Both the position numbers and the translations under genes were made by a program. Positions 1 through 63,296 of a stretch of 64,000 nucleotides of DNA are shown here, piece by piece. Every line of letters begins with the position of its first letter. The first letter of the stretch is position 1. The DNA is from Hericium rajendrae (Eukaryota > Basidiomycota > Agaricomycetes > Russulales > Hericiaceae), in the NCBI GenBank assembly GCA_033439255.1, contig CM065881.1, forward strand, positions 3,162,001 through 3,226,000, given 5' to 3'. The notes beneath the pieces were generated by a model. The model was not told where the DNA came from and did not search any database. It saw only the letters and a list, made by a program, of their open reading frames with translations.

Positions 1-690
1 ATGCATTGCACAGGCACTCGATATCCACGCCGCCCCGTGCGCTTCGGCGAGAACGCGATCAAGACATGGCTAAGGAGCTCGCCGCTCTCCGGGAGGCTCC
101 AAACGTCCAGTCAACACCGCCTCTATGGTGCCTCACGCTGAAGAGACGGATGCGTCGGCGAATGCTCCGTACGCCACCTCGCAGCATCAGGCAATGCTGG
201 GGATCCCGCTAGCCAAGATCTGCTCCCCGTGCTCAATCCATTGCATGTGCCTCTCACAATCCACGCAATGCTGCATGTCACACCGCAGCATTCGCGGCGC
301 GCTCGGCGGGATCGCGAAAAATAGGGCCCACATGCCCCTCCGTCACGACGCAAGGGCAGACGACTGTGCCAATCCAATCTGGCCATCACATGTCGCCGCG
401 GTGTCTCTGTGGTCGAGGCTGCTACTGCCGCGCCACCTTTGCGATCCACACGCTCCTGCCCTCGCCCCCGTCTCGGTTTACTTACGTGCTACGGAGTATT
501 ACATACATGTAAAGATGTCCAACCCCATCAAGTTCCTCTCGCTGTGATGTCTGCTCGCCTGTCTTCGACCGACCAGTTGTTGCAGCCGCACGACATCGCG
601 CAGATAGCATCAATGAATCGTTGAGGTTGACCATGGTCGCTCTGTCCTAGCAACACTGCCGCCGCTCGCTGCGGGGATTAGGATCCTGAG
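1..690. other. Non-coding lead-in of the unit, no feature recognised
   Basis: Matches 12,765-13,455 and 25,517-26,207 with a few percent substitutions. Short open frames on both strands are not conserved as protein. I see no RNA gene or regulatory site that I can support. Confidence 0.5.
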
Positions 691-697
691 TAGTAAC

Positions 698-1661
698 TCG
701 ACTCGGCTAAGTCACGCAGCGAAAACTCACCAGCAAGTGCGGGATCGCGCGCTGGGCTGCGCCCAGCTGCGCGGCGATGCTGACTCCGACAGCATGCCTT
801 TCAAGCCCTCGTTACCGCTCGCCGCGGGGGCCAGGACCTCAAATATTTAGAGTGAAACCCGCTTTTCTCGAGAGCCTCGGTAAGTACAAATTCAAATCGG
901 GTTGATTCACATCGAGACAACTCACCAGCAAGTGTCGAACCGCGCGCTGGGCTTCGCCCAGCCGCGCGTCGACAGCCTCAGCATCAAAGCGATGCTGACT
1001 CCGATAGCGTCCCTTCCACTAGTCGTTGCCGCTCGCCGCGGGGGCCTGAACCTCATAATTTTCGAGTGAAACATGCTGCTTTCGAGAGTCTGAGTGAGTA
1101 CTCTTTCGACTCGGCTAATCCACACCGGAAGAACTCACCCGCGAGCGCAGAAACGTGCGCTGGGCTTCGCCCAGCACGCGGCGATGCCAGCGTCAGCGCA
1201 CCGTTTGCGTTGATTTGCCCTGTGGACCAGCAGGCCGCTCGGCGCGGGCCACTGGATCTCGGGATTTTGGGCGCGGAAACAAGTGTTTCTGCACATTCAG
1301 GTGAGCTTCGAAATGCCTCGGCTAATTCACATCAAAAGCGACTTACCAGCACTCGTAATCGCATCGCGGCGACCTCCAGAAACCGTGTTATGCGCCACAT
1401 GAAGGTCGGTGGGCTGCGCCCGCCTCCCACGACGTGAGCATCGAACCCACACTCACTCCGCTGGCTTTAACCTATGCGCGTGTAGGCTGCTCGCCGCGAG
1501 GCCTGGGACCAGAGAATCTTGCAGCGAAAATCACGGTTTCTGGGAGCCTGGTAAGTGAGATCCTGTATCGACTAATTCTGTGCCAGAGAACTCACCGAAT
1601 GATTTCACGCAGAGGCTAGAATGCATCCACGACATAGCGAGGAAGGTGATGCATGGGCTGT
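698..1661 (-). repeat. Left arm of the intra-unit inverted repeat, unit I
   Basis: Matches the reverse complement of 4,881-5,846 along its full length with moderate divergence. It holds the same modules (CGCGGCGAGCGG-like box, GCTGGGCNNNGCCCAGC hairpin, intron-like segment), here readable on the minus strand. Example hairpin at 752-768. Confidence 0.85.
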
Positions 1662-4454
1662 GAGTCCCAGTTCAACTCGACTGTATTTATCGCAAATCAC
1701 TCACCAGTGCACCCCATAATCAGTCACTGCATGAGCAAAGAGGGACGCAGCAGGCGAATACAGCACCAGGCTTGCTCGACACCTGCACCAGCAGCATAGA
1801 TAATTTGGACCAGCACATCTCTTGCCGAAGATCTGGAGGTGTCACCGCCCTCGCCCTCGCCCGTGTCTGCCTCTCCATCCTCCTTGCGCATGGGCTCACT
1901 CGCGCAGCAGCAGCTTGCACGACACGGTCGGTGACGGCGGGCAGCTGCTCGCGGGCGAGAACATGCCGACGCCTGCAAGGTGCAGCACGCCCTCGCTCTC
2001 CTCGTCAAGCGGCGGCGTGCATGGTTCTGGTTCCGTGTCCGCATCACCGATGACGATGCGCGGTGCAGGCGGCTTGTCGGACGTGACGGCGCTCGTGTCG
2101 CCGAGCGTGGCGCGTGATCACGTATGATGTAACATCCTGCGTGTGTGCCACGAATCATATGAGAAAGACGAGAAGGAGGGGAGATGAAAGGCGCACCAGG
2201 AGCATGAGCAGCAGGCTGGGGAGGATGAGCAACAGCGCGAAGATGCAGAAGGTGCTGGCCGTGCTCGCGACCCAGCCGTCAGGTGTGTAGTTCCAGAGAG
2301 TGTCGACGTACCAGCTCCACAGGAGCGGCGGCAGCGAGGTGGGCGACATTGGAGCTCGCAGCTTACCATATCACCCTGCCCATAACCTGCAGTATCCAGT
2401 TCACTGCTCATCATGTCCACACCCATCTGAGTCCAAACTTGATGCATCGAAGCGGAAGCCTGTAACTTGACGATGACACGCTTGGGCGATGGAATACCGG
2501 GGACTGAGTGACTCGAGCACGTGGTAAGTCAGTGTACAAAATTTTTGTAGGACAACCCGCTCACCTTCTAAAGTTAAGCCGTAGCATGAGCGCGACCAGC
2601 AGATGTTATCGTAGGAGGTAACTTGACAATGACGCCCTTGGTGAGTTGAATTAGTTGCGCAGGTCTGGTAAGCCCAAAAAGATGGTAAAAATTAAATGCT
2701 ACTTACATCTGAGTGAAAAAAATAAATCGAACAAGGAGGGGAGGGGCCTCGAAGATGGGGACAGTGACGTGCAACGGCAGCGGACATGATTAAGTACCAA
2801 AAAGACAGACATGGCATGGACCACTGATACAACCCTGAGACACTCGGAATAATCTTCCGGGCTACGTGGCAAATAATTTGAGTTCTCAGGCTGCCGGGGC
2901 TGGATTGGAATGGAACGTAAAGATCCCCGAAGCGAGGCTTGGCCTCTGACACACTTTACGACAGGATGTCACTTGTAATTTGATGGATAGGACTTCTCCA
3001 TGGTATCCATCTCTTGAAGGCTGATCACACAATAAGATTCAGACTCTAGATCATTTAGATACTTTTTGAGAGAAATCCCAATAGCTTTGAGATCACGGGC
3101 AGAATCCCGTGGATGTGGGATAGGCATGATGAAGGAGCATTTGGCCAGACAGCCCTGAAGTCCAAAGGGCTTGGCAATTAAATCTATTCTTGCAGCGGAG
3201 AATCAGTCAAGCCATTTGACGGAGCAAATGGAGACTTAGCCGTGGATCAGCCACTATGGCTACGCTCGATATCGCGTCGGATTCCATTGGCTTGGTGCGC
3301 TTGAGCGCATGTCAAGTGTTCTGCCCGTAAAAAATAGATACTCACCTCCTTCTACAGGATGGCTATGTTTTGACCTCAGCCTTGTGTATCGACAGAGTGA
3401 TCCGAAGTCTGTAGCACTCAGGGAGAGCGCGAAGTCCTGCATTCAAATGAGATTGCCCGATATGGATCCGTCTGTGTAGTTACTCGCGGCGTGGCATGCA
3501 GCTCTCATTCTCGCAGCGCAAATCAAATAAGCTCGTCTTTTCTGCTGTTCAGATTCGCTTGGACCTATTCAGTTTATAATCAAATAAACAAGCTTTGCAG
3601 CTCCGGGCCATTCCTTTCCAATAGATTTTCGGGTTTGGCTTTCAGCTGCCTAGAGTGTTCGCGGCGTATACATCCCTACGAAAGCTTATCATGCAAACTG
3701 AGTAAGACTTGAAATATACTACATAGAGATTAGAAAAAAAATAGTACGTCCAGTTTCAATATCTAGAATTGGAATCTAAGTACTGAGCCTCAACTTGTCG
3801 AAACTTCGTGAAGCAGTACTTGACAACAACGGCGGGAATATACTTAGTGCCTAGGATGATCGGAAATTGGCTGACCCGTAACACGCACGTAAAGGGTACG
3901 AAAGCGCGGAAGACGGAGCCGGAGACAAGGCCCCGGCACAACGCGCGGAGGAAGAGGGTTCCTCCGTGCGAGCCAATATAAGCATTTGCCTCCGGGACTG
4001 ACCTCTGCCTTTTTGCTCCCCGTCCCCCATTCCCACTGTCCATTAAATCTGTCGCCGCTGTCCACCGTAACTGTCAGCGACTATCAGGATAGCAATGATG
4101 ATAGCGACGCCTTCTACCCAGTCGATTTTCGATCAAGGGGTTCTGTGACGGTCTATGAGTCGAGCTTAAAAGCGAGACGGTCGACTATCAACAGGGAATA
4201 CACAGCGCCGTTGTCCAGTTCTGACAACGTTCACTCCACTTTGCTGCTGTGCTCACGGACGCCATATAGGTGCGCTGGTTTTATTTTCAATTCACAACGT
4301 GATGGGCTTACCTCGTACAGGCTACAGATCGGCAGCGGCATAAGCACTGCGCGTTGCCCCTGCAGTCGAGCAGTTTGTCTATGGGACTTATTGACGCTGG
4401 CGCCGCATCGAATAAGGGCGCGAAATACGTATTTCCCGTGCCAGCAAACACCTG
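1662..4454. other. Inverted-repeat spacer, unit I: no supported gene
   Basis: About 2.8 kb with lower GC than the flanks between 2,500 and 3,850. It contains the minus-strand hydrophobic remnant (2,155-2,349), two reverse-orientation copies of the dispersed CGTCATCGTCAAGTT motif (near 2,466 and 2,619) and an intron-like segment near 3,342. A 95-codon minus-strand frame at 3,756-4,043 is conserved in all units, but the unit III copy has mostly amino-acid-changing differences, so I do not call it a gene. Equivalent spacers are 14,413-17,206 and 27,165-29,985. Confidence 0.5.
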
Positions 4455-6101
4455 GTGAGTTGTACAATTTTGCTGACTCGTCAGGTCATACTCACCGGGC
4501 CTCCAGGAATCTGCTCGAAATCCTGACCTTCAGAGTTCCGCGGCGAGCGGAATTGCGTGCCCATCGACCCGGTCTTCAGCGTCAGCATTCGTCGATGCTG
4601 ACGTGCGCAGCCCATCTTGCCTAGTTCCCTTGCCGGCGCTATTTCTATGTCGCGCCCGACCTGTAGAAGGTGGAGGACATCCTATAGTACGCCGTTCATC
4701 ATATATTTAGCCGAGTCGAAACGGGACTTACCAGGCCGCTAGCAATGTCGATTTTGGACGCCGTTTTTCCAAGGTCCAATGCCCCGCGGCGAGCGGCGTG
4801 CACGTACATAGATCAAGGCTTCGGAGTCAGTGTCGACGGGTGTCCGTCGACGCTGACATCGCTCATGCGATGGCAGCGGGCGCAGCCCGCGCATCGCCTT
4901 CGTCGCCATGTCGCAGATGCATCCTAGCCTCTGCGCGAAATTCTTCGGTGAGTTCTCTAGCGTGGAATTAGTCGATACGGAAACTCACTTATCAGGCTCC
5001 CAGAAACCGTGGTTTTCGCTGCAAGATTCTGGGCCCCAGGCCTCGCGGCGAGCAGCCTACACGCGCGAAGGACAGAGCCAGCGGAGTGAGCGTGGGTTCG
5101 ATGCTCACGTCGCGGGAGGCGGGCGCAGCCCGCCGACCTTCATGTGGCGCATAACACGGCTTCTGGAGGTCGCCGCGACGCGATTACAAGTGCTGGCAAG
5201 TTGCTTTTGATGCAAAATAGCGGAGACATCTCGAAGCTCACCTGGACATGCAGAACCACTTGTTTTCGCGCCCAAAATCCCGAGATCCAGTGGCCCGCGC
5301 CGAGCGGCCTCCTGGTCCCTAGGGCAAATCAACGCGAACGGCGCGTTGTCGCTGGCATCGCCGCGTGCTGGGCGAAGCCCAGCGCGCGATTCTGCGCTCG
5401 CGGGTGAGTTTTTCCGGTGTGGATTAGCCGAATCGAAAGATACTTACTCAGGCTCTCGAAAACAGCATGTTTCACTCGGAAATTTTGAGGTTGAGGCCCC
5501 CGCGGCGAGCGGCAACGACCACTGGAAGGGCACGCTATCGGAGTCAGCATCAGCTTGATGCTGATGGCGTCGACGCGCGCAGCTGGGCGAAGCCCAGCGC
5601 GCGATTCTACGCTTGCTGGTGAGTTGTCTCGACTTGAATTAACCCGAATTGAATTGGTACTTACCCAAGCTCTCAAAAAGCGCGTTTCCCTTCAAATATT
5701 TGAGGTTCAGGTCCGCGCGGCGAGCGGTAATGAGGACGTGAAGGGCATGCTGTCGGAGTCAGCATCGCCGCGCAGCTGGGCGCAGCCCAGCGCGCGATCC
5801 TGCATTTGCTCGTGAATTATCGCTGCATGACTTAGCCGAATCGAGTTGCTACTCACCCAGCTCTCTAAAACAGCGTTTTTCAGTCGAAAGTTCCGAGGTC
5901 CAGGCCCCCGCGGCGAGCGGAAACGAGGGCCTGGAGGACATGCTATCGGCATTGACAACGTCGGTTTGACGCTGACGACGTACTGCGCGATGGGCGAAGC
6001 CCAGCGCGGCCGCTCGCTCGTTCACATGTTGATTGCACGCTAGGTTCAGTCGCGCTTCTCTCACTGCGCTTCTACGAACTATATTCACTCGCAAATTCTA
6101 G
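4440..6101 (+). repeat. Array of about seven intron-bearing modules, unit I
   Basis: Modules of 190-260 bp each hold a CGCGGCGAGCGG-like box (near 4,538, 4,786, 5,043, 5,300, 5,497, 5,715, 5,908), usually a hairpin such as GCTGGGCGAAGCCCAGC (5,367-5,383; 5,582-5,598), then a 48-58 bp segment that looks like a fungal intron: 4455-4506, 4948-4995, 5196-5253 (GC donor), 5404-5451, 5619-5669, 5812-5860, 6044-6101. Most start GTGAGT, and most have an ACTCAC or ACTTAC branch-like element 10-25 bases before the terminal AG. Some exon-like parts share a weak peptide pattern (FEV...AASGN...GMLSES) but stops interrupt it. I infer a spliced, probably non-coding or decayed transcription unit. No known family recognised. 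Confidence 0.6.
4881..5846 (+). repeat. Right arm of the intra-unit inverted repeat, unit I
   Basis: Inverted partner of 698-1,661. The arms are separated by about 3.2 kb and are read outward from the spacer. The innermost shared sequence is a TGCATCC...GCGATG block. The outermost is the ACTTAGCCGAATCGAG element of the last intron-like segment. Confidence 0.85.
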
Positions 6102-6267
6102 AATTCGGACCACCACAGCCGAGTGGCAAGGAGCGGGGACAGGCTAGGCAAACGCGACAGGCATTACCGCAACGCCGGCGACGCGCGACGGATGGAGACT
6201 GGGCGGAGGTGTATGGATATGGAGCGGAGCGATGCGCTCGTGCGATGAAAGCCTGCGATGCCGACAG

Positions 6268-6645
6268 GTGAGTGCGCGAGGAAAGTGGGCCTCGAGTAGG
6301 TACTCACCTACAGTCCTTCCTACAGGCATTCATGCTCCCCGGCAACGCCTGCACGCCGTACCCCTTGCCATCGCCGCGCCATCTATCGCTTCCGCACGCC
6401 TTTCTCCCGTGCGTCTTGCCTTCAGCGCCCCCGACAGCGTGACCAGGGCACTAGCGTCGTAGCCCGCGGCGTGCCGATGTCGCGGTGTGCCGAATCTCAC
6501 GGGCGTGCGCCGTTCGAAGCGTGGGCGAGCGGCTTGAAGATGCGGATGACTCCGCTGATATCTGCGGCGCTGATCTGTAGAAGTCGCAGTGTAAGTCTTT
6601 GAGTGATACGAGATGGCATGGAAACTCACTTGCTGTGCCCCGCAG
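6268..6645 (+). other. Two further intron-like segments downstream of the module array, unit I
   Basis: 6268-6325 (GTGAGT...CTCACC...CTACAG) and 6591-6645 (GTAAGT...ACTCACTTG...CCGCAG) have fungal donor, branch-like and acceptor signals on the plus strand. They continue the series of the preceding array. Exact copies sit in unit II (19,019-19,396) and unit III (31,801-32,178). The exons between them show no convincing protein. Confidence 0.45.
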
Positions 6646-6682
6646 GATCCCTCGCGTCGCCCGATTCTCCGCACCATTTCCG

Positions 6683-7160
6683 ATCTCTCGCGACACATCC
6701 GCGCCTGCGCGCGCGCGCTGAAGGACGACCACAAGGGCGTCATCGTCAAGTTGACGCGGCGCCGATCTCTCGTTGCATGCGCGCCCAGCGCGATTCCGAC
6801 AGCCTCCCCGCCATCTCGGGACGCATCTGCTCGCATCCGCGCCTGCGCGCGCGCTGAAGGACGACCACAAGGGCGTCATCGTCCAAGTTCGACGCGGCGC
6901 CGGTCTCTCGTTGCATGCGCGCCCAGCGCGATTCCGACAGCCTCCCCGCCATCTCGCGACGCATCTGCTCGTATCCGCGCCTGCGCGCGCGCTGAAGGAC
7001 GACCACAAGGGCGTCATCGTCAAGTTCGACGCGGCGCCGGTCTCTCGTTGCATGCGCACCCAGCGCGTCTCCGACAGCCTCCCCGTCATCTCGCGACGCA
7101 TCTGCTCGCATGGCGTCGACCGCGCGGGAGGGTAACGCCAAGGGCGTCATCGTCAAGTTC
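6683..7160 (+). repeat. 137-bp GC-rich minisatellite, unit I
   Basis: Three near-perfect and one partial repeat of about 136-138 bp. Each includes CTGAAGGACGACCACAAGG followed by GGGCGTCATCGTCAAGTT; repeat landmarks fall at 6,733, 6,869, 7,007 and 7,140. Long open frames across it exist on both strands, as expected of GC-rich repeats, and are not convincing genes. Confidence 0.85.
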
Positions 7161-7424
7161 GACGCGCCTTCGACGGCCGTCTTACGTTGGCGCTGCGCCT
7201 CACGGCCCTACGCATCGACCGCTTTCCCGCGCCGTTCCCAGCCTCGCGCGCCATCGGAAGTCGCGCGCATCGTCGCCCACTGCAGTCTGGCGCGCCGAGG
7301 CCCACGGGCGTCATCGTCAAGTTCGATCGGCGTGGCCTTGCGCATGCAGAGTCGCTGTTCCCGCGCATTCCGCCAGGGCTTGGTGCAGGCGGAGGGAAGG
7401 GCAGAGAGGGCTCGGACGCCGGAT

Positions 7425-7890
7425 TCTCGTCGTTCGAGGTGGGCTTGCGCAAGATACGAGGGGACTGAACACTCACGATTTTCCAATGGTAGGCGCTTCC
7501 ATCGACATCGCTGCCCTACGCCACTCCCGCGCATGTAACTCCCACTCGGCGGCGCGTCGGAGGCGTTCCCATCGATTCTGACGCGTCGGGGGGATGTTCT
7601 CATGCATCCGGCCGCATCGTGCGCCGCTCCGGAGCGCACTTTCAGCGGTTGCGGTTGCGCTTTTGGCGTGTCGACGGCGTGCAAAGGCGCAGAAGGACGG
7701 CGAGGAGCAAGTTCGGGCGAGAAAAGGTGGGATTCTCGTCGTTCGAGGTAAGCTGCGCAAGATACGAGGGGACGGAACACTCACGATTTTCCGGTTGCAG
7801 GCGATTCCTTCGCAACGCGACTCCCGCGCATACAGCTCCGTCTGCGGGGCGAACAACTCGGCGGCGCGTCGGTCGGAGGCGGCCTTGTGA
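7425..7890 (+). repeat. Duplicated block with twin introns, unit I
   Basis: Two paralogous segments about 310 bp apart share GGATTCTCGTCGTTCGAG, a donor, CGCAAGATACGAGGGGAC, ACTCACGATTTTCC and an acceptor. The intron-like parts are 7439-7492 and 7748-7800 and are clearly related to each other; flanking exon sequence (GCGCAT, CGGCGGCGCGTCGG) is also shared. Copies: 20,176-20,641 and 32,958-33,423. Either a segmental duplication including an intron or an introner-like element. No coding function recognised. Confidence 0.55.
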
Positions 7891-8014
7891 AGTCTGATGC
7901 GCCGGTTGGACGTTCTCATGCGTCCGGGCGCGTCGTCGTCGTAGTGCGCTGCTTCCGGGCCCGTTTTCAGCGGTTGCGATTGCGCTTGTGAAGGGCGACG
8001 AAGAGCGAGTTTCG

Positions 8015-8185
8015 GGTGGAAAAAGCGGGGGAAAGGTGGAAAAAGCGGGGGAAAGGTGGAAAAAGCGGGAGACGACTTGAACGCGAAGCGAACGGCGCGA
8101 AAAGCGGCCAAAAAATGAGCTCACAGAGGGGAGCTCGGGGGTGAAAACGGACAAGGCGGGCGAGCGTGAAAACGGACAAGTCGCA
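8015..8185 (+). repeat. Purine-rich short tandem repeats upstream of the ATPase promoter, unit I
   Basis: Three copies of a 20-mer GGTGGAAAAAGCGGGGGAAA (8,015-8,074), then two copies of GTGAAAACGGACAAG about 25 bp apart. Strong strand asymmetry (G/A). Copies at 20,766-20,936 and 33,548-33,718. They lie 550-700 bp upstream of each ATPase start. Confidence 0.8.
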
Positions 8186-8572
8186 CGTACCAAAGGAGAG
8201 AGCGCGAAAACGACCAAGTCGACGTGCACAACTGGGTCCTGCGGGGTCCTTAGACAGTAGAAATACGACTATGTTGAAGAATTATCGGCGGTGTCGATCT
8301 CAGACTTTGGTGCAACTGGCGAGGAGCGAGCGAGAGAAATAAGCGCCCAGGACCTGCATCGATGCTATCGGCCGTTATCTTCCAGGGCAGGTGGGAGCAA
8401 AGAGAAGAAAGGGGAAAGCAGCCGGCATTGTCGGATCGATAGATCGACTGGCATCGGCCATTGTTCAGCGAAATATCCCGAAATATCTTTTCCGCCTACC
8501 GTCCGACGAAACGCTCCCGCCCCTCCCTAACTTCGTCTCATTTGTACCTTATTCAGTCCAGCGCAGGCGCTT

Positions 8573-8578
8573 TATATA
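8573..8578 (+). promoter_or_regulatory. TATA element of the unit I ATPase copy
   Basis: TATATA lies 162 bp before the ATPase ATG, in a pyrimidine-rich leader. The same element is conserved in the other units, so the truncated copies keep a complete core promoter. Confidence 0.5.
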
Positions 8579-8739
8579 CGTGGCGTTCTCACACCCGAAC
8601 CACGTTCACAACCCTACATTTCGAATCGCACTTAGGGCGTTGCTGCAGGCCACCGCTTCACACCGCCTGCTGCGGCTGCGGAGCAATCCAATAACTACCG
8701 AAACCACATTTCAAGCAGCTATATCATTATTCTTTCACA

Positions 8740-10547
8740 ATGTCTGCGATATCGACGACGTTCAACAACCTGTGGTCGGGGGGACCCTTGCTTTCGCCGT
8801 CGTCAGGGAAGGGGAAGGTCGAACTGCCGGCGCTAGACGACGAGCCTCTCATTAACAAGCCGGATAGACCAGAGAAATGCGAGCTGAGGATAGAGGGGAT
8901 GACGTGCGGATCCTGCGTCGAGGTGAGTCCTGCTACAGATGTTGTAGTGGGGCTGCTATCGACCGATTGGGTCAGTCCATAGAGGGGATGCTCAGGTCGC
9001 AGGATGGCATTCATTCGGTGAAGGTTGCTTTACTTGCCGAACGCGGCGTGGTAGAGTACGACCCAAATATTTGGGATGCAGATAAGATTATTTCTGTGGG
9101 TATCCAGCCGTTTGTTGTTCGTCAGAGAAACTTATTCTGCTGAATCCAGGAAATCTCGGACATCGGCTTCGATGCTTCGCTCATTCCACCAACACGCTCC
9201 GACGAAGTGACTCTCCGCATATTTGGAATGACGTGCTCGTCCTGCACGTCCACTGTAGAGACTCAGCTAGGCGAGATGCCTGGCATCAGCAGCGTCGCGG
9301 TCTCCCTCGCCACGGAGACCGCCAAGATCACCTTCGATCGCGCCCTCACTGGACCGCGCGAGATGGTCGAACGCATTGAGGAGCTCGGTTTCGATGCGAT
9401 GCTCTCTGACCAGAACGACGTGACGCAGCTGCGCTCGCTCACGCGCACGAAGGAGATCCAAGAGTGGCGCCACCGCTTCCTCTGGAGCATCACGTTCGCG
9501 GCGCCCGTCTTCCTCATCAGCATGATCGCCCCTAAGATACCCTTCACCGAGCGCATCGTCCACCACTTCCTGATACCCGGAATCTGTATCGGCCATACCC
9601 TGGTGCTCATTCTAACGACGCCCGCCCAGTTTTGGATCGGGCGCAAGTTCTACCGCAACGCGTACATGGCTCTCAAGCACGGGACCGCGACGATGGACGT
9701 GCTGGTCATGCTCGGCACGTCCGCGGCGTATTTCTACTCACTCGGCGCGATGTTTTTCGCGATGTTCAATTCGGAGCCCGCGTTCATGCCGCTCGTGTTC
9801 TTCGATACGAGCACGATGCTCATTATGTTCGTCACTCTCGGGCGGTTCCTCGAGAACTCGGCAAAGGGCAAGACGAGCTCCGCCCTGACGGATCTCATGT
9901 CGCTCGCGCCGTCGATGGCCACCATCTACACCGACCCCGTGTGCACCGTCGAGAAAAGGATTCCGACGGAACTCGTACAAGTCGGCGACATCGTCAAGAT
10001 CGTCCCTGGCGATAAGGTCCCTGCAGACGGCACAGTCCTGCGCGGCAACTCCAGCATCGACGAGAGCGCGATCACGGGCGAGCCTGTGCCCGTGCTCAAG
10101 CAGATCGGCGACAGCGTTATCGGCGGGACCGTCAACGCCCTCGGGACCTTCGACATGACCGTCACGCGCGCGGGCAAGGACACAGCGCTTGCGCAGATTG
10201 TGAAGCTTGTCGAGGACGCGCAGACGTCCAAGGCGCCGATCCAGGCTTTCGCGGACCGCGTTGCGGGCTACTTCGTCCCGACGGTCATTACTCTTGCTGT
10301 CGTGACGTTCGTCGGCTGGATGATCTTGTCGAACCTGATGAACCCGCGGCGCTGCCGCCGATGTTCCGCCACCACGCGAGCAAGCTTGCGGTGTGCCTGC
10401 AGCTGTGCATCTCCGTTGTCGTCGTCGCGTGCCCCTGTGCGCTGGGCCTCAGCACGCCGACGGCCATCATGGTTGGCACCGGCATGGGCGCGAAGAACGG
10501 CATCCTTATCAGGGGGGCCGCGCGCTCGAAGCGAGTCGGTCTGTGAC
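8740..10547 (+). pseudogene. 5'-truncated duplicate of the copper ATPase gene, unit I
   Basis: Exons 8740-8922, 8976-9095 and 9150 onward copy the complete gene: promoter, start codon, both CxxC metal sites, the TGE loop and the CPC helix. Homology ends just before the DKTGT phosphorylation site, so the phosphorylation and nucleotide-binding domains are missing and no pump activity is possible. Two one-base deletions relative to unit II (near 10,344 in a C run and near 10,511 in an A/G run) also shift the frame. Both are in homopolymers and could be sequencing errors. Introns 1 and 2 keep GT...AG ends. Intron 2 is only 54 bp. Confidence 0.9.
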
Positions 10548-10622
10548 TTGTGAAACTCGTCGACGACGCGCAGACGTCGACGGCGCCGATCCAGGCGTTC
10601 GCGGACCGTTTCGCAGGCCATT
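10548..10622 (+). pseudogene. Diverged internal ATPase scrap at the unit I/II junction
   Basis: About 70 bp resemble codons found 350 bp earlier in the same gene (10,199-10,271): [19 protein letters not shown] here against [19 protein letters not shown] there. The difference is larger than between the tandem copies, so the scrap is older than the triplication. An identical scrap lies at 23,303-23,376. It sits exactly where the truncated gene ends, so it probably marks the recombination partner that created the tandem array (inference). Confidence 0.75.
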
Positions 10623-11067
10623 TAGAATGTTTTACTTACTTGCATGCAATACACCGTTTCGTCTCATTGCCCTCTGTATTTCCATCGTCAGCAACTGTAA
10701 TCACACATTCGGTGCTTTCCTGGGTTCATCCAATTTATTTGATTTGCAAAGCACTCTGAAACTTTCATGTTGACGAACCTAAAAGCGGCGAAGTCAGTCG
10801 CCGCGCGTCGACTTGATAACTTCACGCGGCGTCTCTCACGGCGACTTCGACATGCTCGCCGTCCCTCGCAACATTTTTCTGCCATCCCGCTCTCTGAATC
10901 CGATGGTGAACATGCGCGATTCAGAAAGGGTGCCGTCGACTGATGCCAGACAGCGAGGCGCAGTGCAGCGCAGCGCTTTTTTGGGTGCGTTCTTTCTCAC
11001 TCACGCGAACCACCCACCGCTCATGTCGCGATGCAGCCAACTTGGCGCAATCCGACGGCTAGCGCGA

Positions 11068-11760
11068 CACGTTTCCTGTCGCTTCACGACTCGGCGCACC
11101 CGATGCTGCCTTTACTTCGGTGTTCCGAGGCGATTTGGCGCATCCCGAGCCATGCACCCCGCCCCCGTTTTCCCGCGATACGGCCCTTTCAGAACGGCAA
11201 GGCTCAACACGCGACCCGTCCCCCGACACTTTGAGATGGACCGCACCGCGCGCTGTCTTTATTACGGAGCTCCGCGGCGTTTAAGTGCACCCCGCATCGC
11301 CGACCCCGGAGCCGACCCCGGGCGATACAACCATTTTGGCATGGTCCGACGTACGGCGCGACACGTTCCCCGACTCACTGCAACTGGGCGCACCCACCGC
11401 TGCCGTTGTTTCGGCGTTTCGAGGCGATTTGGCGCATCCCGAGCCATACACCCCGCCCCCCTCGACGCACGATACCGCCCTTTCGGCACCGAGATCACCA
11501 CCGGGCGACACAGCCGCCGACATGCTGAGATACCACGCACGGCGCGCTGCCTCGGTTATGGCGCTGCGGGGCGTTATGGCGCGTTTTGCTTCCCCACTCC
11601 GCCGCAGAAACACGGCAATCCCGCCATTTCGACACGGTTTGACGATATGCGCGACACATCCCCGTGTCCTTACGACTAGGCGCACCGAACGACGTCCGCG
11701 CTTCGGTGCTCCGAGGCATTTGGGCGCATCCCGAGGAACCCGCCCCCGGCCTTTAGTCCG
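11068..11760 (+). repeat. Degenerate 290-bp tandem repeat in the unit head, unit II
   Basis: Landmarks GCGACACNTTCC..., TTCGAGGCGATTTGGCGCAT and CATCCCGAG...CCCGCCCCC recur at about 11,068, 11,358 and 11,652, a period of 290-294 bp, with heavy substitution. The resulting open frames are compositional. The rest of the head (10,623-11,067 and 11,761-12,764) shows no gene that I can support. Confidence 0.65.
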
Positions 11761-13460
11761 TGGTACAGCCATCGTGACGTGCTCGGATGTTCTGAGCGAC
11801 GGTCACCAGAGTCGCTGCGACAACGCGCACCGAACGCCGCTTTACCTGCGGCGCCACATGGCGTTTGGGCGTACTTTTGCTCGCCTACCCTGGAGCAGGA
11901 ATCCGATGCCATACCCGTTTCCGCACCATCTGACCGACGAGCGTTGCATCTCCGTAGCGCACCGATGGCAGCTTGCGCGCGATCGTATGCATCTCAGCAC
12001 CGTGGGATGACTGACAGGCCGCGAAACGCAGTGCCGCCCCGATACTGGCCCTGCCACATCCCCTTCAGAGATGCTGTAGGCCAGACGAGGCTGTACAGTA
12101 GTAGTCCCCACGATTCCATCGCGCCTCGTTTTGTCTCATCAAGACCACCTGCCGCTCGCACAACGAAGGAGCCACCCGGCGCTGCTGGAGCTGAATGGCC
12201 CCGCCTACGCAAGCCAAGCCGCAAGTTTCCTAACTTGACGATGACGCCGGCGATGTTCCGGGCGCTCGACTGTCTCGTGTGAAGACATACGCCGCTGCAT
12301 CGTGCACATCAAACCCGCTCCCAACATTGACAGCAATCATCCCCAGCATCGACACTATGCTGGGCTGCTGGCATCAGCTCCCCGCTTCGTTGCCCCGAGT
12401 GCGGAAGCTCAGCACGATCCCCAACTCGGATAACACGTTCACAGTTCACCGTCGACTGTGACCGACGTGAAGGCGTGTCCACGGTCGTGCTCAACACACC
12501 GTGGGCATGTCGAGCACTCCATCCTCATGTACGTCGGTGTCAGTTTTTTTCTGAGCTCGCACTCAAAGTTATGTCCTCAAGGACCCGGCCCGTTATCGTC
12601 TTCCAGCGATGTCCCGGCATACCGGCAACTTCATGAATGGCCCGACAAATGCACCCGCCCACTGCCATCACCATCCACGAGCCCACCGTCAGTGCGCCAT
12701 TGATCGTCTGTGCAAGATGTCACCGGCATGATAACACCCGCGTTCCCCGCCCCATCCCTGCTTTATGCATTGCACAGGCACTCGATCTCCACGCCGCCCC
12801 GTGCGCTTCGGCGAGAACGTGATCAAGACATGGCTAAGGAGCTCGCCGCTCCCCGGGAGGCTTCAAGCGTCCAGTCAACACCGCCTCCATGGTGCCTCGC
12901 GCTGAAGAGACGGATGCGTTGGCGAATGCTCCGTACGCCACCTCGCAGCGTCGGGCGATGCTGGGGATCCCGCTAGCAAAGATCCGCTCCCTGTGCTCAA
13001 TCCATCGCATGTGCCTCTCACAATCCACGCAACACCGCATGTCATGCCGCAGCATTCGCGGCGCACTCGGGGGACCGCGAAAAACAGGGCCCACATGCCC
13101 CTCCGTCACGACACAAGGGCAGACGACTGTGCCAATCCAATCTGGCCATCGCATGTCGCCGCGGTGTCTCTGTGGTCGAGGCTGCTACTGCCGCGCCACC
13201 TCTGCGATCCACACGCTCCTGCCCTCGCCCCCGTCTCGGTTTACTTACGCGCTACGGAGTATTACATACATGTAAAGATGTCCAACCCCATCAAGTTCCT
13301 CTCGCCGTGATGTCCGCTCGCCTGTCTTTGACCGACCAGTTGTTGCAGCCGCAGGATGTCGCGCAGATAGCATCAACGAACCGTTGATGTTGACCATGAC
13401 CGCTCTGTCCTAGCGACACTCCCGCCACTCGCTGCGGGGATTAGGATCCTGAGTAGCAAC

Positions 13461-21490: not shown

Positions 21491-23300
21491 ATGTCTGCGA
21501 TATCGACGACGTTCAACAACCTGTGGTCGGGGGGACCCTTGCTTTCGCCGTCGTCAGGGAAGGGGAAGGTCGAACTGCCGGCGCTAGACGACGAGCCTCT
21601 CATTAACAAGCCGGATAGACCAGAGAAATGCGAGCTGAGGATAGAGGGGATGACGTGCGGATCCTGCGTCGAGGTGAGTCCTGCTACAGATGTTGTAGTG
21701 GGGCTGCTATCGACCGATTGGGTCAGTCCATAGAGGGGATGCTCAGGTCGCAGGATGGCATTCATTCGGTGAAGGTTGCTTTACTTGCCGAACGCGGCGT
21801 GGTAGAGTACGACCCAAATATTTGGGATGCAGATAAGATTATTTCTGTGGGTATCCAGCCGTTTGTTGTTCGTCAGAGAAACTTATTCTGCTGAATCCAG
21901 GAAATCTCGGACATCGGCTTCGATGCTTCGCTCATTCCACCAACACGCTCCGACGAAGTGACTCTCCGCATATTTGGAATGACGTGCTCGTCCTGCACGT
22001 CCACTGTAGAGACTCAGCTAGGCGAGATGCCTGGCATCAGCAGCGTCGCGGTCTCCCTCGCCACGGAGACCGCCAAGATCACCTTCGATCGCGCCCTCAC
22101 TGGACCGCGCGAGATGGTCGAACGCATTGAGGAGCTCGGTTTCGATGCGATGCTCTCTGACCAGAACGACGTGACGCAGCTGCGCTCGCTCACGCGCACG
22201 AAGGAGATCCAAGAGTGGCGCCACCGCTTCCTCTGGAGCATCACGTTCGCGGCGCCCGTCTTCCTCATCAGCATGATCGCCCCTAAGATACCCTTCACCG
22301 AGCGCATCGTCCACCACTTCCTGATACCCGGAATCTGTATCGGCCATACCCTGGTGCTCATTCTAACGACGCCCGCCCAGTTTTGGATCGGGCGCAAGTT
22401 CTACCGCAACGCGTACATGGCTCTCAAGCACGGGACCGCGACGATGGACGTGCTGGTCATGCTCGGCACGTCCGCGGCGTATTTCTACTCACTCGGCGCG
22501 ATGTTTTTCGCGATGTTCAATTCGGAGCCCGCGTTCATGCCGCTCGTGTTCTTCGATACGAGCACGATGCTCATTATGTTCGTCACTCTCGGGCGGTTCC
22601 TCGAGAACTCGGCAAAGGGCAAGACGAGCTCCGCCCTGACGGATCTCATGTCGCTCGCGCCGTCGATGGCCACCATCTACACCGACCCCGTGTGCACCGT
22701 CGAGAAAAGGATTCCGACGGAACTCGTACAAGTCGGCGACATCGTCAAGATCGTCCCTGGCGATAAGGTCCCTGCAGACGGCACAGTCCTGCGCGGCAAC
22801 TCCAGCATCGACGAGAGCGCGATCACGGGCGAGCCTGTGCCCGTGCTCAAGCAGATCGGCGACAGCGTTATCGGCGGGACCGTCAACGCCCTCGGGACCT
22901 TCGACATGACCGTCACGCGCGCGGGCAAGGACACAGCGCTTGCGCAGATTGTGAAGCTTGTCGAGGACGCGCAGACGTCCAAGGCGCCGATCCAGGCTTT
23001 CGCGGACCGCGTTGCGGGCTACTTCGTCCCGACGGTCATTACTCTTGCTGTCGTGACGTTCGTCGGCTGGATGATCTTGTCGAACCTGATGAACCCCGCG
23101 GCGCTGCCGCCGATGTTCCGCCACCACGCGAGCAAGCTTGCGGTGTGCCTGCAGCTGTGCATCTCCGTTGTCGTCGTCGCGTGCCCCTGTGCGCTGGGCC
23201 TCAGCACGCCGACGGCCATCATGGTTGGCACCGGCATGGGCGCGAAGAACGGCATCCTTATCAAGGGGGGCCGCGCGCTCGAAGCGAGTCGGTCTGTGAC
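21491..23300 (+). pseudogene. 5'-truncated duplicate of the copper ATPase gene, unit II, frame intact
   Basis: Exons 21491-21673, 21727-21846 and 21901 onward are open without interruption. About 566 residues match the complete ATPase (two CxxC metal sites, TGE, CPC helix); the frame then continues through unrelated sequence to a stop at 23,526, giving a predicted 642-residue product. The catalytic DKTGT, TGD and GDGIND motifs are absent. Most differences from the unit III coding sequence are silent, for example a cluster near 22,683-22,745, so the truncated copy derives from a functional ATPase allele. It keeps the promoter and could be transcribed. The product would be a metal-binding membrane protein without ATPase activity, if it is stable. 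Confidence 0.85.
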
Positions 23301-23302
23301 TT

Positions 23303-23376
23303 GTGAAACTCGTCGACGACGCGCAGACGTCGACGGCGCCGATCCAGGCGTTCGCGGACCGTTTCGCAGGCCATTT
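23303..23376 (+). pseudogene. Diverged internal ATPase scrap at the unit II/III junction
   Basis: Same short ATPase-like fragment as at 10,548-10,622, in the same position relative to the truncated gene. It is followed by the same non-coding head sequence. No equivalent follows the complete gene of unit III within the window. Confidence 0.75.
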
Positions 23377-34272: not shown

Positions 34273-37200
34273 ATGTCTGCGATATCGACGACGTTCAACA
34301 ACCTGTGGTCGGGGGGACCCTTGCTTTCGCCGTCGTCAGGGAAGGGGAAGGTCGAACTGCCGGCGCTAGACGACGAGCCTCTCATTAACAAGCCGGATAG
34401 ACCAGAGAAATGCGAGCTGAGGATAGAGGGGATGACGTGCGGATCCTGCGTCGAGGTGAGTCCTGCTACAGATGTTGTAGTGGGGCTGCTATCGACCAAT
34501 TGTGACAGTCCATAGAAGGGATGCTCAGGTCGCAGGATGGCATTCATTCCGTGAAGGTTGCTTTACTTGCCGAACGAGGCGTGGTCGAGTACGACCCGAA
34601 GATATGGGATGCAGATAAGATCATCTCTGTGAGTACCTAACCTTCCGTTGTTCGTCAGGCAAACACTGCAGGCGTGACAGTTTTCTTTTCAAACAAGACC
34701 TTGATAAGAGTTTTAGACTCATTTGAGTCCTTTTTCTAAAAAGGATGCTGAAAAAGAAAGAAGTATTATCATGCTGAACATGTTTTCGGACCGATACCAT
34801 GATAATACTATTTCTTTTTCAACATCTTTCTTCAAAAAAGGACATTAATACGTTCAAAACTCTCATCAAGGTCTTTACAGGAAAAATACTGTCGTGCAGG
34901 CAGCGAAACTTATTTTGCTGATCCCAGGAAATTTCGGACATCGGCTTTGATGCTTCGCTCATTCCACCAACGCGCTCCGACGAGGTCACTCTTAGAATCT
35001 TCGGAATGACATGCTCGTCCTGCACGTCCACCGTAGAAACCCAGCTGGGCGAGATGCCCGGCATCAGCAGCGTCGCGGTCTCCCTCGCCACGGAGACCGC
35101 CAAGATCACCTTCGATCGCGCTCTCACCGGACCGCGCGAGATGGTCGAACGCATTGAGGAGCTCGGTTTCGATGCGATGCTCTCTGACCAGAACGACGTG
35201 ACGCAGCTGCGCTCGCTCACGCGCACGAAGGAGATCCAAGAGTGGCGCCACCGCTTTCTCTGGAGCATCACGTTCGCGGCGCCCGTCTTCCTCATCAGCA
35301 TGATCGCCCCTAAGATACCCTTCACCGAGCGCATCGTCCACCACTTCCTGATACCCGGAATCTGTATCGGTCATACCCTGGTGCTCATTCTAACGACGCC
35401 CGCCCAGTTTTGGATCGGGCGCAAGTTCTACCGCAACGCGTACATGGCTCTCAAGCACGGGACCGCGACGATGGACGTGCTGGTCATGCTCGGCACGTCC
35501 GCGGCGTATTTCTACTCACTCGGCGCGATGTTTTTCGCGATGTTCAATTCGGAGCCCGCGTTCATGCCGCTCGTGTTCTTCGATACGAGCACGATGCTCA
35601 TTATGTTCGTCACGCTCGGGCGGTTCCTCGAGAACTCGGCAAAGGGCAAGACGAGCTCCGCCCTGACGGATCTCATGTCGCTCGCGCCGTCGATGGCCAC
35701 TATCTACACCGACCCGGCCTGCACCGTCGAGAAGAGGATCCCGACCGAGCTCGTGCAGGTCGGCGACATCGTCAAGATCGTCCCCGGCGACAAGGTTCCC
35801 GCGGACGGCACGGTCCTGCGCGGCAGCTCCAGCATCGATGAAAGCGCGATCACGGGCGAGCCTGTGCCCGTGCTCAAGCAGATCGGCGACAGCGTTATCG
35901 GCGGAACCGTCAACGCCCTCGGGACCTTCGACATGACCGTCACGCGCGCGGGCAAGGACACAGCGCTTGCGCAGATTGTGAAGCTTGTCGAGGACGCGCA
36001 GACGTCCAAGGCGCCGATCCAGGCTTTCGCGGACCGCGTTGCGGGCTACTTCGTCCCGACGGTCATTACTCTCGCTGTCGTGACGTTCGTCGGCTGGATG
36101 ATCTTGTCGAACCTGATGAACCCCGCGGCGCTGCCGCCGATGTTCCGCCACCACGCGAGCAAGCTTGCGGTGTGCTTGCAGCTGTGCATCTCCGTCGTCG
36201 TCGTCGCGTGCCCCTGTGCTCTGGGTCTCAGCACGCCGACGGCCATCATGGTTGGCACCGGCATGGGCGCGAAGAACGGCATCCTGATCAAGGGCGGCCG
36301 CGCGCTCGAAGCGAGTCGATCTTTGACTCGGGTCGTGCTCGACAAGACCGGCACTGTGACGGAGGGTAAGCTCACTGTTATGGGCGTAGCCTGGGTCGCA
36401 TCGGACGAATTCGACGAGCCGGAGGTGCAAAAGGCTTCTGATGTGAATGCTAGCTCGCTTACATCCACGACGGCCGACGGCACCACCTCGCGCGCAGCAT
36501 TAGTCGCGATGGTCGCGGCCACCGAGGCCAGATCAGAGCACCCTCTCGCTAAGGCCGTCGCTACCTGGGGCAAAACTGTTAACTCCACCAGTGGCCCCGA
36601 GGCGGTCATCGATACCTTCGAAAGTGTCACTGGTCAAGGTGTCACCGCTACCATCACTCTTTCCGACTCGCCCCAGAAGCATTCCGTCTGGATCGGCAGC
36701 GCACGCTTCGTCTCTGAGTACAACGACGGGCAGCTCCCGACCTCGCTCGCTGATTTCGAGTTGGAGGAGGCCAGCCAGGGTCGCACGCTGATCTTCGTCG
36801 CCGTCGCCTCTGGATCGAGGCGTCTTCCCGTCCTGGCGATCTCTCTATCGGATGCTCCGAAGAAGTCGTCTGTGCATGCGATCAGGGCGCTACAGGCCAT
36901 GGGCATCGAGGTGAACATGATGACCGGCGATGGCAAACAGACGGCGCTCGCGGTTGCGAAGCAGGTCGGCATCCCGCCGGAGGGCGTATGGGCGAGTATG
37001 AGCCCGAAGGGCAAGGCCACCGTCGTCACCGAGCTGATGGAGAAGGGCAGCAACGTCGCCATGGTATGTTTTCTGTGTTTGTACAAGCGAGAGGCGAATT
37101 GACGTGTGCACGAAGGTCGGAGACGGCATCAACGACTCTCCAGCCCTGGTCGCCGCGACCGTCGGCATAGCGCTCTCGTCCGGGACATCGGTGGCGATCG

Positions 37201-61192: not shown

Positions 61193-62257
61193 CATGTCTG
61201 TGGTCTTATTACAAATAACTCGAAAAATAACCCACTCACACAAAGAGTCTATCACAAGACTGTCTCGATAGGTAACTTCTGAGCATGTTTATACCATCAA
61301 ATTCCTAGATCTACATATTGCATCTATCAATTGAAGCTAACGGACAGCGGGATGCCAGAAAAGTAAGGTACATAAATAAGTAGTTATGTCGTATGGATGG
61401 TGAGTTCGAGCCTTAGACATTGTGTGCGGGTCCTCGAGCGTCGTCGACAGCTGAATTGCTTAGAGTGGGCACATTAAAAAAACACGGGGATCTCATGCGC
61501 CGCATATGCGGATCACATCAGGTCAAGCAGACTCAACACGAGCCTTGGCAACGATGTACCATGTCCTCCGCTGCCTGCATGCCCGCATCGACTGTCACCA
61601 TTCAGCAGCACATGCTGCAGCCGCAGATCGCGCATATCCGAGCACCTGACACCCGCAGACACGGGGAGCTGTGGCAGCGCTGGCAGCGCCATGAGTACTG
61701 GAGTGTATGTACAGTTCGCCGCTGAGCTCACGGTTCACCGCCCGCGTCCGCGAACAGACACAACGCAGCCGCCAAACACGTCGGCCCATGTAATACTACC
61801 TCTGGGATACCTATCACGGGGATGGCGGGTGCAAAAAATACGGGATTGGATAGAAAATTTGAAAAAAAAAAAAAAAGGGGGCAGTGTGTGCACAATGTAC
61901 AGCGTGCTGGTGAGATTGCTGCTTGAATAGGCACACTCGCTGAAGTGAAGGGGGTGTCAGTAAATTAGACTCACCGTAGACCGGTGTGAATCTCAAGTTG
62001 CGCACTTCGGCGCCATTGATCCTTCCATGGTGCTGATTGGTTGTAGACTCGTTTACCGTGTATGCATATGCCTTGAAGCTCGAAGCTCGAAGCTCTATCT
62101 CAAGTCGAGCAATCCTTCGCAGGGCCGGCAACTCCCGCTAGAGGGTTCGCGATCTTCCGCTAGAGGATTCGGGCTCTTCCGCTAGAGGCCACAGACACCA
62201 GTAGCGTGCCGAGTTGAAACCTGCCTATATTGGTGCAACAGACACCAGTAGCGTGCC
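61193..62257 (+). mobile_element. Non-autonomous TIR element A (about 1.06 kb), forward
   Basis: Begins GCACGGTAATCATGTCTGTGG and ends ...CAGACACCAGTAGCGTGCC, imperfect inverted repeats of each other. It is preceded by CAATTTCG (61,185-61,192) and followed by the same 8 bases (62,259-62,266). The right end is duplicated: the CAGACACCAGTAGCGTGCC terminus occurs at 62,192-62,210 and again at 62,239-62,257. Three CCGCTAGAGG repeats spaced 22-23 bp lie just inside the right end. No transposase frame. An 8-bp target duplication with subterminal repeats fits the hAT group (inference). Confidence 0.75.
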
Positions 62258-62266
62258 TCAATTTCG

Positions 62267-63296
62267 GGCACGCTACTGGTGTCTGTGGCCTCTAGCGGAA
62301 GAGCCCGAATCCTCTAGCGGAAGATCGCGAACCCTCTAGTGGGAGTTGCCGGCCCTGCGAAGGATTGCTCGACTCGAGATAGAGCTTCGAGCTTCGAGCT
62401 TCAAGGCATATGCATACACGGTAAACGAGTCTACAACCAATCAGCACCATGGAAGGATCAACGGCGCCGAAGTGCGCAACTTGAGATTCACACCGGTCTA
62501 CGGTGAGTCTAATTTACTGACACCCCCTTCACTTCAGCGAGTGTGCCTATTCAAGCAGCAATCTCACCAGCACGCTGTACATTGTGCACACACTGCCCCT
62601 TTTTTTTTTTTTTTTTCAAATTTTCTATCCAATCCCGTATTTTTTGCACCCGCCATCCCCGTGATAGGTATCCCAGAGGTAGTATTACATGGGCCGACGT
62701 GTTTGGCGGCTGCGTTGTGTCTGTTCGCGGACGCGGGCGGTGAACCGTGAGCTCAGCGGCGAACTGTACATACACTCCAGTACTCATGGCGCCGCCAGCG
62801 CTGCCACAGCTCCCCGTGTCTGCGGGTGTCAGGCGCTCGGATATGTGCGATCTGCGGCTGCAGCATGTGCTGCTGAATGGTGACAGTCGATGCGGGCATG
62901 CAGGCAGCGGAGGACATGGTACATCGTTGCCAAGGCTCGTGTTGAGTCTGCTTGACCTGATGCGATCCGCATATGCGGCGCATGAGATCCCCGTGTTTTT
63001 TTAATGTGCCCACTCTAAGCAATTCAGCTGTCGACGACGCTCGAGGACCCGCACACAATGTCTAAGGCTCGAACTCACCATCCATACGACATAACTACTT
63101 ATTTATGTACCTTACTTTTCTGGCATCCCGCTGTCCGTTAGCTTCAATTGATAGATGCAATATGTAGATCTAGGAATTTGATGGTATAAACATGCTCAGA
63201 AGTTACCTATCGAGACAGTCTTGTGATAGACTCTTTGTGTGAGTGGGTTATTTTTCGAGTTATTTGTAATAAGACCACAGACATGATTACCGTGCC
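62267..63296 (-). mobile_element. Non-autonomous TIR element B (about 1.03 kb), inverted copy of element A
   Basis: Reverse complement of element A with only occasional differences (for example one base in a CTAGNGGG repeat, one in CTCGACNNGAG, and the length of a poly-A/T run). Flanked on both sides by the exact 8-bp direct repeat CAATTTCG (62,259-62,266 and 63,297-63,304). It forms with element A an almost perfect 2.1-kb palindrome with a 56-bp centre. Confidence 0.8.

Follow-up and report, generated by a model that had tools for sequence, protein, structure and literature searches.

The stretch analysed here, called the window, is 64,000 nt of Hericium rajendrae DNA (C4:3162001-3226000; the genome searched was 46.8 Mb in 19 contigs). 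It carries divergent arrays of short modules marked by a conserved A box (CGCGGCGAGCGG-like), and most modules also contain hairpins and an intron-like segment. With a probability of roughly 55%, we read the array as a structured noncoding unit that has a TATA promoter, is spliced on the sense strand and spreads through tandem amplification and by hitch-hiking on transposons. The array would form the body of a long noncoding transcription unit and belongs to a multicopy family. Transcription would start from a conserved TATA-like promoter (about 3974) and pass through tandem exon-intron modules. Each intron, made up of a GTRAGT-to-ACTYAC core of mostly 39-46 nt and then a YAG acceptor, would be excised from the sense transcript, and most exons would fold into a hairpin of variable sequence about 30 nt past the A box and a 7-bp stem with a GNA loop. 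The transcript would then cross copies of an 18-nt box and stop before the neighbouring gene. The unit seems to have been amplified in tandem with that gene and to have travelled also as the passenger of a KDZ transposon. The likeliest role of the box and the hairpins, at a guess, would be recognition by a protein or small RNA in trans.

Modules and splice-like signals

We regard the specificity of the sense acceptor as the best evidence for the predicted sense splicing. Module loci totalling 87.7 kb contained 75 GTRAGT...ACTYAC pairs, and the reversed control and 38 kb taken from elsewhere in the genome contained 0 each; 56 of the 75 pairs were 44-46 nt long and 17 were 39-42 nt long. These pairs came from 17 selected module-locus sequences and were chosen by an exact donor and ACTYAC match, so only the acceptors and flanks are independent tests. 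A sense YAG starting 6-17 nt past ACTYAC was present in 65 of the 75, while each of the five alternative arrangements of these letters was present in 10-27. Genome-wide, the GTRAGT...ACTYAC pattern occurred 818 times (114 in the control). The places listed were all on C1 below 4.2 Mb and almost all outside known module loci; the pattern alone is therefore not diagnostic.

Together with the acceptor triplets, information content and a comparison of the two arms indicate that the splice signals are under selection on the sense strand. The initial annotation, which proposed a spliced noncoding locus, took donor and acceptor sites decaying as fast as the rest of the module as grounds for giving it up; at the level of sequence, the splice-like signals decayed more slowly. 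For the information measure, 98 modules with the tighter A-box form and sufficient upstream sequence were reduced to 88 by removing near-identical ones. When these were aligned on the A box alone, the donor reached 1.44 bits, ACTYAC 1.53 and a mid-intron TTAGCCGAG motif 1.20, compared with an overall mean of 0.72 bits; the A box itself reached 1.82 bits, being the alignment anchor and selected. Between the arms, 6 of 181 feature positions differed as against 103 of 796 other positions, the features having been chosen on one arm.

The right arm (4455-6008, plus strand) was delimited by its A boxes and repeats. Its A boxes are located at 4539-4550, 4785-4796, 5044-5055, 5296-5307, 5501-5512, 5716-5727 and 5909-5920, with a spacing of 193-259 bp, in agreement with the seven modules of 190-260 bp described initially. 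A hairpin had been claimed for most modules as well, and the exact GGGCGNAGCCC core with its GNA hairpin was present in six of the seven, at 4878-4888, 5121-5131, 5370-5380, 5585-5595, 5778-5788 and 5992-6002; the first module has a degenerate form. Module 2 also has hairpin H1 at 4832-4851.

A donor and ACTYAC-type pair stands ahead of six of the seven A boxes, and the corresponding intron-like segments, all on the plus strand, are 4455-4506 (GTGAGT...ACTCAC...CAG), 4948-5003, 5196-5253, 5404-5465, 5619-5669 and 5812-5873. The segment at 5196 has a GC donor (GCAAGT) and the one at 5812 a GTGAAT donor, and their left-arm copies read GTAAGT and GTGAGT. Donor-like, ACTYAC-like and YAG motifs occur also on the opposite strand in the segments at 4948 and 5404, and on both strands in two further segments of the box zone (6268-6325 and 6591-6645). 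The positions and the module description given in the initial annotation were right, but the likelier acceptor lies 9-20 nt past ACTYAC, for example at the end of 5404-5465 and not of 5404-5451; 5451 is kept as an alternative acceptor.

ACTYAC is the reverse complement of the donor GTRAGT. A stem between the intron ends, in RNA or DNA, was considered and rejected: the donor R and the ACTYAC Y vary independently, 29 of 66 combinations not being Watson-Crick pairs. The ends are complementary over 6 nt only. The A-box search behind this pairing test gave 115 matches on 17 sequences chosen from module loci, or 107 after shifted duplicates had been removed.

Exon hairpins and the genome-wide family

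Most exons contain two hairpins, H1 and H2. Perfect stems of at least 6 bp numbered 137 in 98 modules and 18 in shuffled exons, and a GNA loop was present in 59 of the 98 by this strict perfect-stem count. By a looser criterion H1, about 30 nt past the A box, was present in 71 of 97 modules with 59 distinct stems, and H2 in 74 of 97, with a 7-bp stem and a GNA loop in 67 of the 74. Pairs 5 and 6 of H2 were Watson-Crick in 69 of 74 and 69 of 73 modules (32 and 28 in shuffles), and pair 8 was at the shuffled level. A covariation analysis over the module copies had been proposed with the initial annotation, and it yielded two covarying hairpins per exon: in an alignment of 43 hand-picked modules, 75 cells were changed on both sides as compared with 29.6 in shuffles and at most 15 when the alignment was slid. 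Mismatches in the stem core of the fixed alignment were G-U in 30 cases and A-C in 13, which leans mildly towards the sense strand as RNA. An earlier count of 26 and 17 had hinted at stems equally free of both, as expected of DNA, and that idea was dropped with the fixed alignment.

The expansion of an intron-carrying repeat, offered in the initial annotation as one possibility, extends through the genome. The search for the module recommended there gave 59 exact occurrences of the A-box 14-mer (1 for the reversed control), and the right arm used as a query gave at least 89 matches. An 18-nt box, GGGCGTCATCGTCAAGTT, lies 3' of the modules and has 343 genome copies with at most one mismatch (0 in the control). 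In the window it is found on the plus strand at 6735-6752, with further exact copies at 7009-7026, 7142-7159 and 7306-7323, and as near copies on the minus strand at 2620-2637, 2464-2481 and 12232-12249. Across 79 places in the loci read, with 76 distinct contexts, the box is conserved almost evenly along its length and its flanks are unrelated; the 79 places allow up to four mismatches, and five with four mismatches look like chance. The box was also considered as a conserved peptide (GVIVKF) and rejected, there being no third-position slack in its conservation over the 79 places. A 138-bp tandem repeat of 3.5 copies occupies 6696-7166, with a spacing like that of the boxes inside it. Two motif patterns searched in viral contigs gave no exact match.

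The family occurs in tandem arrays on C4 and C1. The C1 units have the same order as those on C4: TATA-like block, modules, boxes, conserved downstream block, gene and reversed boxes. An AA9 gene on C1 is present in seven tandem copies, 12.3-13.0 kb apart and interleaved with module arrays (C1:4925872-5001653, L051, L052). Judging by the coordinates of modules or boxes, there may be more tandem pairs or triples at C8:2.08-2.11, C8:2.54-2.55, C4:0.52-0.53 and C11:0.90-0.91 Mb, where the repeat period is 12.4-13.6 kb, similar to the window unit size. In locus L050, module arrays stand on both strands and flank a promoter-like block, so the divergent two-arm layout reported for the window is not unique to it. 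The conservation known among loci is that of the rightward promoter-like block only.

A part of the family is associated with a KDZ (Kyakuja-Dileera-Zisupton) DNA transposon. Seventeen dispersed copies, 98-99% identical, carry family sequence, 14 of them spanning the whole 3-kb query and three a part of it; one of the copies, L003, was read and contains modules and boxes. Among the matches listed, every one of the 17 copies has a KDZ transposase match (PF18758) no more than 22 kb away, and in the copy read the domain scored 94 bits (cut-off 26.6). The element (L053-L064, L066, L067) also has an F-box-like gene (26.6 bits, cut-off 24.3) and a 251-codon open reading frame (ORF) on the other strand. 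KDZ transposons are expected to have defined ends and target-site duplications of 7-8 bp; here one end is marked by query position 267, where 14 of 19 matches stop; a seemingly sharp end at L053:5816 proved to be a break in that single copy. No KDZ match near C4:3.15-3.20 Mb or the C1 and C8 loci read was among the matches listed (172 found, the weakest unlisted). The window locus is for this reason not filed as KDZ, and KDZ as the driver of the window arrays is unsupported among those matches. The module repeat seen in the initial annotation stands. The annotation overlooked the family of 18-nt boxes, the link to KDZ and the tandem arrays that include host genes at other places, as well as two points on ACTYAC, its complementarity to the donor and its difference from the branch form in clear excess in other DNA of the genome.

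Layout of the window and its neighbouring genes

The three repeat units recognised at the outset were confirmed by self-BLAST, with 98% and 95% identity among units and a divergence profile. Unit 1 spans 1-12764 (plus strand) and units 2 and 3 begin at 12765 and 25517; with a unit length of about 12.75 kb they take up the first 37 kb of the window. A fourth unit lies directly upstream of the window, the left arms being at C4:3149711, 3162687, 3175450 and 3188202.

The left arm of unit 1 (687-1660, minus strand) is an inverted copy of 4883-5855, 89% identical to its reverse complement. It has minus-strand A boxes at 1498, 1246, 1040 and 826, and a weak fifth at 673 just beyond the inverted copy. 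The mirrored minus-strand arm of the initial annotation is real, but it is no perfect mirror: the two arms arose as an inverted segmental duplication and differ in module number, seven and five.

Between the arms, a spacer block (2829-3360, plus strand) shows about 70% conservation with two C8 loci. Another spacer piece, 1852-2362, has an 89% identical copy at C14:1308697-1309206, the sole C14 match of the spacer. The promoter-like block (3857-4236, plus strand) has the TATA-like CAATATAA at 3974-3981, and part of it is conserved upstream of the modules in C4, C8, C1, C9 and C2 loci. It is 73% identical to the C8 loci, and its C1 counterpart also has a TATA-like form. Positions 3840-4060 gave 14 genome matches, four on C4, two on C8, six on C1 and one each on C9 and C2. 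On the other side of the modules, the downstream block (8151-8303, plus strand) is conserved in C8 and C1 loci and directly precedes the neighbouring gene.

This gene encodes a copper-type P-ATPase that is cut short (8740-10623, plus strand). In unit 1 it has the HMA domain and most of the E1-E2 ATPase domain, without the hydrolase domain, which unit 3 has in addition. The ATPase recurs with the units, at about 21491-23374 and from about 34273, and the similarity between units stops at 10548/36328. Unit 3 has about 242 bp of extra DNA at the position equivalent to 9125, and within this lies an imperfect 181-bp palindrome (34695-34875), 75% identical to its own reverse complement. On C8, the downstream block abuts two gene pieces, one of a WD40-like protein (weak matches, below cut-off) and one of an FAD/NAD-binding protein (0.0028, below cut-off), which we take to be FDXR-like. 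The WD40-like gene is truncated by the downstream block at L050:384-2372 and L049:143-996, and in L050 it faces the FAD/NAD-binding fragment. Two 22-bp tandem repeats at 62135-62188 and 62289-62339, 100 bp apart, have units that share a reverse-complementary piece (CCGCTAGAGG / CCTCTAGCGG).

Alternative readings and known relatives

Several observations weigh against a spliced, structured noncoding RNA. A donor search before the A box of module 2 (4785) found none, and the expected zone of 5619-5669 has no plus-strand YAG, only AAG. The copies are mutually related, and the counts are not independent. Two of the five covariation measures taken on the alignment of 43 modules were less striking: the number of pairs with a double change was 11 as compared with 8.2 in shuffles (17 of 500 shuffles as high), and that of further pair types 27 as compared with 23.8 (33 of 500 as high). 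G-U makes up about 5% of the core pairs, which is low for an RNA helix. Rfam at the gathering score gave 0 matches in the window, L050, L051 and L055 (90,009 bases). ACTYAC, which the initial annotation took as branch-like, is indeed among the most conserved columns, but the branch form in clear excess elsewhere in the genome is CTGAC: in 43.7 kb of other DNA, a small sample of mixed DNA and not of annotated genes, CTGAC was counted 18 times (6 in the control), CTCAC 5 (3) and CTTAC 6 (10). An in-frame intron search of the same set gave 28 candidates; CTGAC was present in 7 of them, and 13 had no branch motif at all.

The main rival is a mobile or satellite-like element acting at the level of DNA, which we consider possible and on balance doubtful. 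The hairpins, the inward GTRAGT pairs and the 18-nt boxes would then be sites for a recombinase or replication protein, a KDZ or other transposase would act in trans, and the resemblance to splice signals would be secondary. Such an element would account for the presence of the family inside the 17-copy KDZ element at 98-99% identity, for the tandem arrays with units of 12.3-13.0 kb on C4 and C1 (and more suggested by coordinates) and for the occurrence of the box in both orientations around neighbouring genes. Given the low G-U share, the hairpins may form in DNA. A GNA loop closed by GC makes a very stable DNA minihairpin of the d(GCGAAGC) type, and the module hairpins share this closed loop with the d(GCGNAGC) minihairpins; to our knowledge these are a chemical motif for which no genomic family is known. 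Against such an element stand the order-specific sense acceptor triplets and a tolerance at donor R and ACTYAC Y that is not symmetric pairing. At the window locus, moreover, neither a target-site duplication nor an element end could be defined, and the listed KDZ matches lie away from the C4, C1 and C8 loci read.

The equivalence of ACTYAC to a reversed donor, with CTYAC rather than CTGAC, also suggested two-faced introns, in which one segment is spliced from both sense and antisense transcripts and the locus makes complementary spliced RNAs. We consider this improbable. The 75 symmetric pairs with their two length classes and no control match would fit it, and YAG is found on both strands in 40 of the 75 pairs and in 12 of 16 places, some of which are parts of one array. 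Antisense YAG beat shuffles (48 of 75 as compared with 25.5) but failed against a composition-matched triplet: GYA was found 44 times, and with similar copies removed the two stood at 25 each. Antisense splicing was therefore not accepted as an established fact. The accessible text of a paper on symmetric fungal introns likewise describes a genuine intron for the coding strand alone (PMC8469720). Equally long odds attach to the further idea that complementary spliced, hairpin-studded RNAs and the 18-nt box could act in trans on other copies, e.g. by RNA interference, while the locus amplifies the host genes between the arms.

An ordinary decaying repeat, that is, a tandemly duplicated noncoding segment without present function, is less probable still. 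The unit-to-unit divergence of the tandem copies and the lack of an Rfam match are what it would predict, but it does not accord with the selective conservation and covariation or with 18-nt boxes that are nearly uniform between unrelated flanks. A protein-coding gene with tandemly duplicated exons can practically be dismissed, in spite of the TATA-like promoter and single-frame open stretches of up to 117 codons, because only 7 of 83 indels have a length divisible by three, the mismatches have no 3-base periodicity in five pairwise alignments (the right arm with the left arm and with sequences from C10, C2 and two C8 loci), no reading frame is conserved, and the eight non-ATPase ORFs of the window unit have no Pfam match at E up to 1. 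The array is not protein-coding, as the initial annotation held in finding no coherent protein.

If sense splicing of a noncoding transcript is the right reading, the arrays would represent a large family of fungal noncoding genes, structured, dense in introns and apparently undescribed, which occurs next to host genes amplified in tandem (copper ATPase, AA9) and within a transposon that has multiplied recently. They would offer a test system for why a noncoding array retains an intron in nearly every module and for the way in which gene amplification is linked to such arrays. Other fungal genomes can be probed with the motifs of the box and the modules.

A family of this architecture was not recognised in the literature searched, subscription papers being mostly outside its scope, which is weak evidence of absence. 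KDZ transposons are mobile elements of Agaricomycetes, and one 17-copy element here bears modules and boxes, whereas the window arrays have no nearby KDZ transposase among the matches listed; the accessible part of a paper on KDZ elements mentions no such modules or boxes (PMC12730594). Introners and introner-like elements resemble the modules in supplying many similar short introns within one genome, and some introner families have terminal inverted repeats, according to the accessible part of PMC9860276. Introners, however, insert alone into many genes, whereas here intron and homologous exon are copied as one noncoding module: the module introns accompany homologous exons and are not inserted at unrelated gene positions. 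The symmetrical stwintrons of Hypoxylaceae are also fungal introns with symmetric ends; as described in the accessible text of PMC8469720, they are nested gene introns, some with inverted repeats of 45-55 nt. The module introns differ in being complementary at their 6-nt ends only, and no nested structure was noticed in those compiled, no search having been aimed at nesting. Tandem-repeat long noncoding RNAs are noncoding and built of repeated structured modules, and in this the arrays are like them; they differ in the absence of an Rfam match, in the layout of one intron per exon module and in the array of 18-nt boxes.

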